Under the pieces are notes generated by a model. That model worked only from the letters and a program-made list of their open reading frames with translations. It was not told the DNA's origin and ran no database searches. This document shows positions 2,832-8,256 of a stretch of DNA of 20,846 bases, piece by piece. The DNA is from a virus. The stretch's first letter is position 1; each line of letters opens with the position of its first letter. Made by a program: the position numbers and the translations under genes. Where the stretch lies: positions 1 through 20,846 of the IMG/VR virus record IMGVR_UViG_3300025131_000526. One strand, 5' to 3'.

Positions 2832-5800
2832 ATGCCTACTACTACACCAGTCCCCATAGCAACCCCACCACCGGGAGTTATACCCACGACATTACCTCCA
2901 GTCACGACGGCTGCTCCGGCAGTAAATTTTAATAATATTAACATATCTAATGTTAATATATCTTCAACTTACCCTGTTATAGGCTCTGGCGGGGTTGAGG
3001 ATTCTTATGAAAACACTGATGGAAAGGTAACGGTAGAAAATATTGTTTTAGATAAACCGTTCTCAGAACAACTAACATATTTTGTATATGATCAAAACGG
3101 TGCAAGAGACGAGTATGGTGATCCTATAAATTTTACGTCCGGCCAAGCCGGGGTTTCTGTAAACGATAATAACGAATCAATTGTAGAGATAAACGAAGAG
3201 TTGACGGTTGTTGCGGATCCTACAGATAATTCCGGTAATATGGATATAGTGATTCAGTTAAGAGATCAAAACTATACTACTATAGTTACAGGACGATCCA
3301 TAACAACCCCTGGACCTACCACCACACCAGCACCTATCACAACTGCCGCGGCGCCTGCAACAACTACCACGGGGCCTGCAACACCTGCTCCCACGCCTAT
3401 TACACCCACGCCAACACCGGCGCCGAGAATTTCAAGGCTGGGGGATAGTGATAGAGGTAGTGAAGGTGATACAGATTATATCCCAGCTACATCAACTGAA
3501 ACTAAAGTTAACGTACCAGTATTTCGAGACCGATCTTCTATAGAAGAGTCAACAACTACACCAGTACAGGTTTCATCACAAGAAGAATTAATAACTTCAT
3601 TAGAAACTTATTCACAAATAGAAATTGTTAGTGATTTCGATTTAACAGTTACAGTTAGAGTACCTGAATATACTTCAATTAAAGGTGTTAATAACCCGGT
3701 TATACGTACCAATACTACTGCTTTTTCTGTTAAAGAAAGTAATATTGAATTAAGTGGGTTTACGATAGCAAAAACCAGGACAATTTCTACCGGGGCTGGT
3801 ATATTAGTAGATAGACCGTATAGATCCTCTACAGAAGCTCCTTCTAATATCCTTATTACAGATATAACGTTTAATACTGTTGGCACCCCGGGGTTAGAGA
3901 AATATTCACCGGTAACAATATTAGGTTATAGTAGTTTAAACGCCACGCCATTAATAGATGAGAAATTAACTGTTTTAAATAGTGGATGTGGGCCTATACA
4001 GAATGTTACTATTACTAATTGTACCTTTCTTAACACACCAAACACTGCTATCTACGCAACAGTAGTGGATGGGTTAAATATTTCTGAAAATATAATAGCT
4101 AACACTACTAGTAATATTACTTCATTGGGTGATGGTATAAAATTAAACGGCGTTACTAATAGTAGTATTACTAGTAATGAACTATCTAATATTGGTCGTT
4201 CTGGTATATATATCACCGGTAGTAATACAAATAATATTACTATTACAGATAATAAAGTAGATGCATTTGCAACAGATAAAGCCGACGGGTTTAGAGCAGG
4301 TTTATCAATAAACTACGGTGTTAATGGTGCTCTGGTATCAAATAATAATATTTCTAGAGGTAGTAATATTTGGAACGCTGGTATTGCTAATAGAGGCGGT
4401 GTTACAAATGTTTTAGTAAATAGCAACGAGATAAGTGATGTTAGAGATGGTATTCTTATAAGCGATAATAGTAGCACGTTTAATATAAGAAATAATTCTA
4501 TATTAAATGTTCATCGCTACGGTGTCCAGACTTTTAAAACGTGGGATACTGTTATTTCAAACAATAGTATTATACAATCAGAAAGTAAGAGAGAAGATTT
4601 TCAAAGCCTTTCGAAATTTGACCAAAAGATGATTGGTTTGGGCTGTGGAATATTATGCGGGACGAGTAACAATGTGCAAATATTAGATAATAGTATTACT
4701 GGCACTTATAATGAAGGAACTGGTGATTCAGCAATTCTAGTTACCGGTACGTTACTAACCAATGATCAGAATGACCTATATACATTACACGCGCTTGGTA
4801 TCAGTAGCAACTTAGATGAAATTTATGGAACGAGTGGTAAAGGCGTATTAGAGGGTATTTCACAAAATATCGTTTCTAATAATACTCTAGAAGGTAGAGA
4901 CACACTGCTTTCAGTAAATAAAGCAGATGTAATTTTACCAAGCAGAAAGCTAGGTGAAAGTAATAATATTGAAATACCTGATGCTGCTATATTTAAAACA
5001 AACCTTACAGGGTCAGAAGGAAGAATAGTAGTAGTTGTTAAGCCAGACAGTACAAGAACCGTAGAAAGTTATATACAGGATAATTCAAAATTATCCGAAG
5101 GTAATGACATAATAATTGTTAGACCTAGTAAGCTCAATCCTTCCGACGGTACAGTTAGTAGCATTGATACGGTAACAGAATATAAAGGTAGCAGTCTTGT
5201 TACTATTAATACTGATCCTGTAATAGACACAAAAGAGGTGGTAGGTTCCCGCGGGCGAAGACAGACAATCATCGAACCAGAAGTAGTTGAACCAGAAGTA
5301 GTTGAACCGACGGAGACATGGGAAGAAACACGACAGCGATTATTAGCGGCTAGACGGGCCGCGGCCCTCGAAGCGGATGTCGAAGCGAGGCGCTTACTAG
5401 AGGAGGCAGCTGCTGCCGCAGAGCTAGCCTCCGGTGAGACCGTCAACCCTGCTCCGAGTCTCACCTCAGAGAATTCAATTACCTCACAAAGTACTAAAGA
5501 AATTCAAGCTTTAGTATCTGGTCTTACCCCGTCAAGTGAGACCATTGACATGTTTATTCGTTATAACGGTCCTATGGATCCACAATCTCCTCGGTTAGAA
5601 AGAAATCCTAGTTTTTGGGGAAGTGATCTTAAAGGTATAACTGGAATTAGCCCTCTTGTATATTGGCCATCCCAACCAGCCCGGAAGAGATACTTTCAAG
5701 GAGTAGCGATCACCCGGAGACATGTATTAATCGCAAGACATCTCGAGCATCCAGAAGTTGGAACTGAAATATACTTTGTAGCAAAAGATGGCACGATAGA

Positions 5801-7412
5801 GAAAAGAACAATAATTGGTGCAAGGGACAACCCAACCGCTGGGGATTGGAATATAAGTGTGTTGGATGAAGATTTGCCTAGTAATATAGAGGTTTTAAAA
5901 GTCTTACCAGAGGACTTACCTTCATTAGCTCCTCCTAGCGAGTTAGTGCGCGTTCCCGGCGACGAGGGCGGCTGGTCACCTGGTGTAGTCGGGAGATTGG
6001 AACCTAGTCCCGGGTGGCGGTGGACCGTAACAAGCGGGTTGGTATGGGGCACGGATCAAGAAGAAAAAGGGATAATTAGTAGACTAAGTAATTTATACAT
6101 TGGAGATGGGGTTACCGGAGGAGCCCTCCGGTTCCCGGAGGTCCCGTCTCCCCTCGACGCCGAGCACCTCCACATCTCGACTAATCTCAACGGCCTTGTT
6201 AGTCAAGGATGGACGGAAAGCTTAGAAACACATGATTCGAGTAGCCCGTGGTTTATCGTGATTAATAACGAGGCAATTCTAGCAGGAACGGCTCATTATG
6301 CGGACAACGGTCCAATGACCGGAGGTAGGAACAGTACTCAGATTTTAAATCAGCTGATTGCCGCGGCCGATGAGGCGGTTCTGGGGAGTAGTACAGGTTA
6401 CACGGTAACTAATGCTGTCTTTACGCCTATAGATACGTTACAAGAAAAAATTACTATTGAACCGATAGACATATCTAATAAGCTGTATACATGGGCAGAC
6501 CTGTTAAAAGAAAACATTACTATCGACGAAGACGACCCGTCTAAGCTGAATATATGGTCAGATACGTTACAAGAAAAAATTATTATTGAACCGATTGACT
6601 CTTCGACCGGTAGACCAATAGACATATCTAATAAGCTGTATACATGGACAGACCTGTTAAAAGAAAACATTACTATCAACGAAGACGACCCGTCTAAGCT
6701 GAATATAAACGGTGGCAGCGGTGGAGGTGGCGGCGGTGGAGGTGGCGGCATTGGGGAAAAAAGAACTATTGAACTGATTGACTCTTCGACCGGTAGACCA
6801 ATAGACATATCTAATAAGCTGTATACATGGACAGACCTGTTAAAAGAAAACATTACTATCGAAGAAATAGACGGCCCGTCTAAGCTGAATATATACGGAG
6901 ACCCTCCTCTCCGGCCTCTCACCGGTGACGGACCCGATGGACGTGACCCGTTCCGTCCTAACCCTGCGGGGGACGGATGGCCACCGCCGGAGTGGCCACC
7001 GCCGGATTGGCCACCACCGGAGTGGCCGCCTCCACCGCCACCGATGCCGTATATACCAGCTCTTTGTAGAAAACCACCAGTGCCACCCCGTGGAGATCCT
7101 GAAATGGAGGAAGAGGAAAGACAAGATGATATCATGAATAGAATTGATATAGAACAACAAGGAAATGACCCTCCAAATAAAATCTTCCCTTCTCCATCGA
7201 ACGCGTTGCAGGTACCTTTTTACTCGCATATAAACTTTAATACTAATATAACTAAAAAATTTCCAACACCATATAATTTTGATGATGATGATGATACACA
7301 ACTTATAGATGATACACAACTTATAGATGATAATCAAATATTAGCAAGCGCTTCTGTTACAACAACAATATGTCCTCCAGATAGGGAAGATTGCAATATG
7401 CTTCATTACTAA
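2832..7412 (+). CDS. Giant multidomain tail fibre with beta-helix and trypsin-like protease domain
   Basis: The frame encodes 1526 residues. In order there are: a Pro/Thr-rich N-terminus (1-30); a beta-rich domain (about 45-150); a mucin-like Thr/Pro linker (156-200); a right-handed beta-helix (about 248-700) with repeated Asn/Ile/Ser turns such as NVTITNCTF and GIYITGSNTNNITITDNKV; a tandem EPEVV repeat; an Ala/Arg/Glu coiled coil (830-873); a trypsin-fold domain (about 940-1185) with candidate triad H970 (LIARHLEH), D1005 (AGDWNISVLD) and S1136 (HDSSSPWF); three copies of a repeat containing LYTWxDLLKENITI (1201-1354) with a Gly run between copies 2 and 3; a WPPPEWPPPD tract (about 1383-1406); and an Asp-rich tail with DDTQLI repeats. 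The beta-helix suggests receptor binding or glycan cleavage. The protease domain could mature the fibre or cut host surface protein; this is inference. Base composition changes sharply inside the gene. Confidence 0.85.
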   Translation: MPTTTPVPIATPPPGVIPTTLPPVTTAAPAVNFNNINISNVNISSTYPVIGSGGVEDSYENTDGKVTVENIVLDKPFSEQLTYFVYDQNGARDEYGDPINFTSGQAGVSVNDNNESIVEINEELTVVADPTDNSGNMDIVIQLRDQNYTTIVTGRSITTPGPTTTPAPITTAAAPATTTTGPATPAPTPITPTPTPAPRISRLGDSDRGSEGDTDYIPATSTETKVNVPVFRDRSSIEESTTTPVQVSSQEELITSLETYSQIEIVSDFDLTVTVRVPEYTSIKGVNNPVIRTNTTAFSVKESNIELSGFTIAKTRTISTGAGILVDRPYRSSTEAPSNILITDITFNTVGTPGLEKYSPVTILGYSSLNATPLIDEKLTVLNSGCGPIQNVTITNCTFLNTPNTAIYATVVDGLNISENIIANTTSNITSLGDGIKLNGVTNSSITSNELSNIGRSGIYITGSNTNNITITDNKVDAFATDKADGFRAGLSINYGVNGALVSNNNISRGSNIWNAGIANRGGVTNVLVNSNEISDVRDGILISDNSSTFNIRNNSILNVHRYGVQTFKTWDTVISNNSIIQSESKREDFQSLSKFDQKMIGLGCGILCGTSNNVQILDNSITGTYNEGTGDSAILVTGTLLTNDQNDLYTLHALGISSNLDEIYGTSGKGVLEGISQNIVSNNTLEGRDTLLSVNKADVILPSRKLGESNNIEIPDAAIFKTNLTGSEGRIVVVVKPDSTRTVESYIQDNSKLSEGNDIIIVRPSKLNPSDGTVSSIDTVTEYKGSSLVTINTDPVIDTKEVVGSRGRRQTIIEPEVVEPEVVEPTETWEETRQRLLAARRAAALEADVEARRLLEEAAAAAELASGETVNPAPSLTSENSITSQSTKEIQALVSGLTPSSETIDMFIRYNGPMDPQSPRLERNPSFWGSDLKGITGISPLVYWPSQPARKRYFQGVAITRRHVLIARHLEHPEVGTEIYFVAKDGTIEKRTIIGARDNPTAGDWNISVLDEDLPSNIEVLKVLPEDLPSLAPPSELVRVPGDEGGWSPGVVGRLEPSPGWRWTVTSGLVWGTDQEEKGIISRLSNLYIGDGVTGGALRFPEVPSPLDAEHLHISTNLNGLVSQGWTESLETHDSSSPWFIVINNEAILAGTAHYADNGPMTGGRNSTQILNQLIAAADEAVLGSSTGYTVTNAVFTPIDTLQEKITIEPIDISNKLYTWADLLKENITIDEDDPSKLNIWSDTLQEKIIIEPIDSSTGRPIDISNKLYTWTDLLKENITINEDDPSKLNINGGSGGGGGGGGGGIGEKRTIELIDSSTGRPIDISNKLYTWTDLLKENITIEEIDGPSKLNIYGDPPLRPLTGDGPDGRDPFRPNPAGDGWPPPEWPPPDWPPPEWPPPPPPMPYIPALCRKPPVPPRGDPEMEEEERQDDIMNRIDIEQQGNDPPNKIFPSPSNALQVPFYSHINFNTNITKKFPTPYNFDDDDDTQLIDDTQLIDDNQILASASVTTTICPPDREDCNMLHY
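5274..5303 (+). repeat. Two tandem 15-bp copies encoding EPEVV
   Basis: GAACCAGAAGTAGTT occurs twice in a row and a third copy begins (GAACCG). It encodes EPEVVEPEVVEP, a charged linker between the beta-helix and the coiled coil of the giant fibre. Confidence 0.9.
6432..6893 (+). repeat. Three imperfect repeats in the giant fibre, including an exact 85-bp pair
   Basis: The units run 6432-6554, 6561-6707 and about 6752-6893. All share the core ATATCTAATAAGCTGTATAC and encode ISNKLYTWxDLLKENITI followed by PSKLNI. Units 2 and 3 are identical over 85 bp (6593-6677 and 6776-6860), including synonymous positions, which points to recent duplication or gene conversion. Unit 1 lacks the SSTGRPI insert. 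A Gly-rich spacer (6711-6749) separates units 2 and 3. Confidence 0.92.
7293..7328 (+). repeat. Two exact 18-bp tandem copies encoding DTQLID
   Basis: GATACACAACTTATAGAT is repeated head to tail near the C-terminus of the giant fibre, after a run of GAT codons. It encodes an acidic DTQLIDDTQLIDD tail. Confidence 0.9.
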
Positions 7413-7425
7413 TAATTAATGGTGA

Positions 7426-8256
7426 GTGAAAAAGATCACCATAGGTACTTGTGTATATGATGATTATGACGGTGTTTATTTTACCTTACAATCTATCCGA
7501 TTATGTAATCCTGATATTCTAGATAGAATAGAATTTATTATCATTAATAATAACCCTGCTTCATGTCACGGTGAAGAAGTTTCTAAGTTAACGCAACATA
7601 TTAGTGAACCTATAACATATTTGGAATTCTCCAAATACAATTCCCCGTTTTTAAAAGGTAAGATATTTGATCTAGCTGAAACAGAATATGTATTAGTATT
7701 AGATTGCCATGTTCTATTAGAACCAGGAGCCTTAAAGCAATTGTTAGATTTTTATGATGCTGGTAAAGATGAAGGTAACCTATTACAGGGCCCTCTTCTG
7801 CATGATGATCTTACAAATATAAGCACACATTTTGATTTATCAAAATGGGGTAGTGATATGTGGGGTGAATGGTCTTTTGACAAGAGAGGTAAGGATAGAG
7901 ATAGTGAACCGTTCGAAATACCAGCACAAGGTATGGGACTGTTTACATGTCGTCGAAATAGCTGGTTAGGCTTTAATAAAAATTTTAGAGGTTTTGGTGG
8001 TGAAGAAGGGTATATTCACTGTAAATATAGAAACGCTGGTAAAAAGACATTATGTTTGCCATTTTTAAGATGGTTACATAGATTTAGTCGCCCGGGAGGA
8101 ACAAAATTTACACCTCTATTACAAGATAGATTTAGAAACTATATGATAGGATTTAATGAGGTAGGAAGAAACACTAATGAAGTTATTAAAATATTTAAGG
8201 AAAAAATACCTAATAAATTTATTGACGACGTTAAAAAAGAGCTAGGAATTACGTAA
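7426..8256 (+). CDS. Family 2-like (GT-A fold) glycosyltransferase
   Basis: The 276-residue product starts directly on the first Rossmann strand (KKITIGTCVYDDYDG). The start is GTG 7426, because the in-frame codon just upstream is a TGA stop. The metal-binding DxD site appears as LDCHVLL (D93, H95), as in GalNAc-transferase-like members. Further GT-A features are the acceptor-side FRGFGGEEGYIHCK segment (E193/E194 as candidate catalytic acids) and a late His in LRWLHRF (H218). It would transfer a sugar from a nucleotide sugar to an acceptor in the host cytoplasm. Placement right after the adhesion genes suggests it may glycosylate fibre protein, host surface polymer or another phage target; the acceptor is unknown. 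Its TAA abuts the stop of the convergent gene with no spacer. Confidence 0.8.
   Translation: MKKITIGTCVYDDYDGVYFTLQSIRLCNPDILDRIEFIIINNNPASCHGEEVSKLTQHISEPITYLEFSKYNSPFLKGKIFDLAETEYVLVLDCHVLLEPGALKQLLDFYDAGKDEGNLLQGPLLHDDLTNISTHFDLSKWGSDMWGEWSFDKRGKDRDSEPFEIPAQGMGLFTCRRNSWLGFNKNFRGFGGEEGYIHCKYRNAGKKTLCLPFLRWLHRFSRPGGTKFTPLLQDRFRNYMIGFNEVGRNTNEVIKIFKEKIPNKFIDDVKKELGIT

Follow-up and report, generated by a model that had tools for sequence, protein, structure and literature searches.

A chymotrypsin-fold domain with a variable pocket in the giant fibre of a phage

The window considered here is a virus record 20,846 bases long. It encodes a giant phage fibre of 1526 residues, and this fibre raises two questions: does it carry a trypsin-like domain, and what would such a domain do on a phage particle? 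The first-pass annotation had read residues 940-1185 or so as a trypsin-like serine protease with H970, D1005 and S1136 as catalytic residues, and had proposed that it processes the fibre itself or cuts proteins on the host surface. The features discussed below are listed in Table 1.

Table 1. Features of the fibre gene in the window, with the evidence for each
Feature	Position in window	Strand	Evidence
Giant fibre gene, 1526 aa	2832..7412	+	Pfam Beta_helix E 1e-8; PHROG tail spike E 0.0016
Right-handed beta-helix, residues 386-477 (best Pfam stretch of the fibre)	3987..4262	+	Pfam
Chymotrypsin-fold (PA-clan) domain, residues ~886-1202	~5487..6437	+	AF2 model, Foldseek, profile match
H970 codon (His57 equivalent)	5739..5741	+	66/66 copies; factor IX alignment
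D1005 codon (Asp102 equivalent)	5844..5846	+	67/67 copies; factor IX alignment
Clade insertion, residues 1036-1060, low-confidence loop	5937..6011	+	pLDDT <50
Hypervariable segment, residues 1087-1159 (surface loop and pocket positions 189/192/193, 214-219)	6090..6308	+	Allele comparison; pocket numbering counted from factor IX alignment
Serine loop HDSSSP, residues 1134-1139 (family: GDSGNP)	6231..6248	+	S1136 codon at 6237-6239
LQEKITIEPIDISNKLYTWADLLKENITIDEDDPSKLNI repeats, C-terminal to the protease-fold domain	6435..6896	+	Read from translation

Detection and predicted fold of the domain

When the window domain was used as a single query, no convincing match was obtained in Pfam, PHROGs, or the PDB (searched with phmmer). 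A profile of 58 relatives, built without the window and without its near-copy L002, recovered the window domain (E 1.5e-44), and the three motifs were in register; the alignment spans about residues 880 to 1197 of the protein, in an ORF numbered from five codons upstream. In a match of the family profile to coagulation factor IX (E 2.6e-5), the motifs of H970, D1005 and S1136 align with H57, D102 and S195; a profile of six members, with the window left out, matched bacterial trypsin at E 0.0025.

Structure prediction led to the same fold. For the window domain, the AF2 model (pLDDT 77, pTM 0.81) has two weak stretches, residues 1036-1060 and 1093-1110, of which the first is a feature of the window's clade that is missing in most relatives. 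This model matched serine proteases in Foldseek (E 3.9e-6, prob 1.0), and the structural comparison gave a VIA Z of 17.4 for Esp (rmsd 2.8 over 186 residues) and a Z of 17.3 for chymotrypsin. The model of L017, an intact relative (pLDDT 95.4, pTM 0.93), matched chymotrypsin with Z 18.4, rmsd 2.7 over 184 residues and a Foldseek E of 9e-10. The two-beta-barrel chymotrypsin fold is present in both predicted models; the window domain is just ~10-15% identical in sequence to solved structures. Structures of thrombin G193P and G193A with bound PPACK were also among the fold matches.

Taken as predicted models with their fold and profile matches, these results confirm a PA-clan chymotrypsin-fold domain at about residues 886-1202 of the fibre. 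The first-pass annotation had therefore recognised the domain correctly, had placed the three catalytic residues where the factor IX alignment puts them, and had located the domain well while making it too short. In comparison with the trypsin/chymotrypsin-fold peptidases of the PA clan (PF00089, V8/Esp-type glutamyl endopeptidases), the window domain has the same fold and the same catalytic residues in the same order, but it lacks Gly193 and Gly196, has no Pfam family of its own, and is embedded in a virion protein.

The Pfam Beta_helix match supports the proposed location of the domain in a fibre, next to a beta-helix. C-terminal to the domain (window 6435-7100), the fibre contains two kinds of repeat, a ~40-residue unit and WPPPEW, together with a poly-Gly run; the lengths of this run and of a C-terminal DDTQLIDD stretch vary among near-copies of the fibre. 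GC3 is ~0.4-0.6 in a part of the domain (window 5952-6308) and thus higher than in the N-terminal part of the fibre (0.25), which may reflect recent acquisition. Directly after the fibre lies a gene with a GTG start (window 7426-8256) that resembles family 2 glycosyltransferases, although weakly (Pfam E 2.6e-4, below the Pfam cut-off).

Recovery of the family and its virion setting

In the phage collection, we found a single distant relative, MW202510 (26.5% identity), which has the His, the Asp, and an intact GDSGSP loop and is located in the virion region of its record, after a gene annotated as rhamnogalacturonan lyase. The family was found by means of a DNA pattern, GDSGNP followed by a strand and then an N-G turn. 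This pattern led to 15 viral loci, nearly all of which have common motifs far beyond the pattern (YVRN, SPWNS, GTLITPRH, LDQEEKAL, and STGYTVTEAD). A subsequent profile scan yielded 80 loci, and a final scan with the window's own clade yielded more. No new loci were obtained with a profile of three sequences (A3) or with the intact phage relative as the lone query, and searching with other parts of the fibre did not add any alleles.

The window domain is ~30-40% identical to its relatives. Pfam, NCBIfam, and PHROGs each lack a model dedicated to this family; weak matches to Pfam Trypsin (PF00089) were seen for 11 of 60 members, the best at 7.2e-5. Searches of curated libraries and of open-access literature did not reveal any earlier description of a family of trypsin-fold domains on phage particles. 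Twelve relatives were found on bacterial contigs, mostly of the Planctomycetes-Verrucomicrobia group and one of Anabaena. Some of these bacterial copies (L118, L115, L119, and L120) have signal-peptide-like N-termini, and secreted cellular members of the family may therefore exist.

Several arrangements suggest that the domain is portable. In L025 (2957-4546), it is joined in one frame to a T4 gp15 tail-sheath stabiliser (Pfam E 1.5e-61), and in L026 it occurs with a baseplate-wedge-type N-terminus. L041, L047, and similar loci have stand-alone domain genes with no obvious signal peptide, and in a prophage-like locus of Anabaena lutea the domain gene directly follows a gene matching tail-fibre and minor-tail families; a long ORF downstream of it looks tape-measure-like, a reading that PHROGs did not confirm. 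The domain is thus found N-terminally, internally, or C-terminally in unrelated proteins, or on its own. Because of these fusions, stand-alone genes, and neighbours, the family, as read from its sequences, can be described as a portable virion-protein module across tailed-phage contigs.

Two further arrangements were observed. The stand-alone-type copy in L052 (1782-3374) continues in frame into Pfam Galactosyl_T (E 2.9e-12), while its sister copies stop earlier. The ORFs of L121 (3098-8854) and L122 (3098-8842), each about 1915 aa long, carry the domain, with a GDSSSP loop, at residues ~300-610; the L121 protein has no PHROG match.

Catalytic triad and serine loop

The active site was surveyed in 70 distinct sequences of the first viral set, with counts referring to the copies that reach each position. 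The triad is kept throughout, with Ser in 69 of 69 copies (for His and Asp, see Table 1), and the Asp preceding the catalytic Ser and the Pro three residues past it are likewise invariant in this set; L129, a member found later, has Ala in place of the loop Pro. Gly occupies position 193 in 60 of 69 sequences, with His, Asn, Tyr or Phe in the rest, and position 196 has Gly in 64 and Ser in 5. All 12 relatives from bacterial contigs have GDSGNP.

By alignment to known enzymes, the window domain has the His, Asp, and Ser in the expected order. The oxyanion-hole Gly193 of a GDSGGP-type loop, however, is absent from all three near-copies of the fibre, whose loops read HDSSSP (window and L003) or NDSSSP (L002). 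The caution that replacement of this Gly by His could mean loss of activity was fair but incomplete, since Gly193 has been lost repeatedly elsewhere in the family with the triad kept. The window loop also has Ser at 196, in place of Gly, and at 197, where the family usually has Asn. In a family tree computed without alignment columns 193 and 196, changes of residue 193 are spread over about five branches, and the triad is retained on every one. The window groups with L027 (NDSGSP), L025, and L026; since the nearest further relatives have GDSSSP (L121/L122) or NDSSSP (L123), the two serines are a feature of the clade, with residue 193 variable.

The view that an enzyme which has lost Gly193 must be inactive is weakened by the census and the tree, because members with Tyr, Phe or Asn at this position keep the triad. 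Known enzymes point the same way: human mesotrypsin is active with Arg193 (PMC5413004), and the venom plasminogen activator TSV-PA has Phe193, where bulky residues may lower inhibitor sensitivity and substrate interaction (PMC3123349). As these chymotrypsin-fold enzymes indicate, loss of Gly193 alone does not abolish activity. They differ from the window domain, however, in being cellular secreted enzymes. Moreover, mesotrypsin and the viper venom proteases without Gly193 keep Gly196. For peptidase activity of the window domain, the sequence points both ways: the complete triad argues for it and the altered oxyanion loop argues against it.

An alternative, which we hold to be somewhat unlikely, is that the domain is a pseudoprotease, in which the trypsin fold is purely a binding cleft that holds a host-surface peptide or a virion partner uncut. 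The replacement of Gly193 by His or Asn and of Gly196 by Ser in the oxyanion loop would fit this, as would the free variation at pocket positions 189, 192, and 193 described below. By analogy, a version that does not cut is best exemplified by UmbA of the Streptomyces umbrella toxins, which has a trypsin fold within a large extracellular particle targeting other cells and which binds, rather than cleaves, its partner strand in the cleft (PMC11062931); a chain of this toxin particle (8w20) is among the fold matches of the window model (Z 16.8). However, UmbA of S. coelicolor lacks a complete triad and holds UmbB (PMC11062931), whereas the window domain has a complete triad and its family keeps all three residues at ~30-40% identity, even in the members with Tyr, Phe or Asn at 193.

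Pocket variation and proposed role

Three contigs carry the fibre (the window, L002, and L003); all are fragments, and one lacks the N-terminal half of the domain. Downstream of the fibre, the window is 99.80% identical to L002 over 7984 nt and 99.63% identical to L003 over 7993 nt. Between the window and L002, codons 1087-1159 have 16 nonsynonymous and 3 synonymous changes, so that half of the fibre's 32 nonsynonymous changes (16) fall in 73 of the 1296 codons compared (p 5.8e-13). In this segment dN is 0.144 and dS is 0.127, whereas dS is zero in residues 886-1086 and the remainder of the fibre is almost free of synonymous change. Numbered from the factor IX alignment, the variable pocket codons are 189 (Ser/Gly/Arg), 192 (Thr/Ile/Glu), and 193 (His/Asn/His), together with 214-219 (HYADN or TNPNS); from this numbering we infer that they line the primary specificity pocket. 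The other variable codons are in 1087-1114, mainly inside the low-confidence loop 1093-1110. Among near-clonal phages, the pocket thus appears to vary more than any other part of the fibre.

A decaying passenger, that is, a domain that has lost its function and whose cleft is drifting, might be expected to show the loss of Gly193 and Gly196 and the near equality of dN and dS in the cleft segment. We consider this improbable: drift would not pile changes up within 73 codons of a fibre that is otherwise almost free of synonymous differences, and D1135, P1139, and the triad are retained, with the reading frame open in all copies.

Since synonymous change is also raised in the segment, selection alone does not explain it, and a local source of variation (targeted mutagenesis, or recombination with other alleles) has probably contributed as well. 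The variable proteins of diversity-generating retroelements in phage tails likewise have local hypervariation in a tail or fibre protein. Known retroelement variable regions, however, systematically have C-type lectin folds (PMC8144416), whereas the window segment belongs to a protease fold. No RVT_1 match, indicating a reverse transcriptase, was found in the three contigs, and the search for a template repeat on these fragments, in which a mismatch was tolerated only where the template has adenine, yielded no candidate that exceeded shuffles. An A is present in some allele at 18 of the 32 variable sites, a proportion that is not informative. It is doubtful that the fibre carries a catalytically competent serine protease whose specificity pocket is diversified by a targeted mechanism (a retroelement or cassette-like recombination), with a protease instead of a lectin as the evolving key to the host.

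Other closely related pairs within the family showed no comparable cluster of changes, and most of them have more synonymous than nonsynonymous changes (L121/L122 judged by eye). In L037/L075, six nonsynonymous changes and one synonymous change are scattered, and the more distant pairs L088/L099 and L098/L099 also vary in the same loop as the window alleles. The hypervariable pocket in a virion-borne protease fold would be a new point, based on three alleles.

The reading that we prefer, with a probability of about one half, is that the fibre bears a protease-fold module whose substrate cleft is displayed towards the host surface. The cleft would bind a protein or peptide there, and changes in the pocket would follow changes in this target. 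Because the His, Asp, and Ser are kept, the bound target would probably also be cut, which is less certain; with Gly193 and Gly196 replaced, cleavage would perhaps be slow or narrowly specific. Such cleavage would clear a protein layer or free the fibre, and binding alone would serve adsorption. As a counterpoint, the three near-copies have His or Asn at residue 193, a position that is itself variable, which would be odd if catalysis were strongly selected.

Self-processing, in which the domain cuts its own fibre during maturation, is very improbable: the domain does sit between two regions of one chain, and some giant phage fibres undergo cleavage during assembly, but nothing was found in support of it, since relatives carry the module at varying positions in unrelated proteins or as a stand-alone gene, and a fixed site in cis would not require a pocket that varies between near-clonal phages. 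Of the two roles proposed in the first-pass annotation, contact with the host surface is the part that fits better, because the pocket is where the fibres of these phages differ most.

If the cleft of the fibre-borne module does meet the host, protein cleavage or peptide binding would join sugar binding and depolymerisation among the ways in which phages engage cells. The hypervariable pocket makes this question testable, in that three natural alleles can be compared for binding and cleavage.
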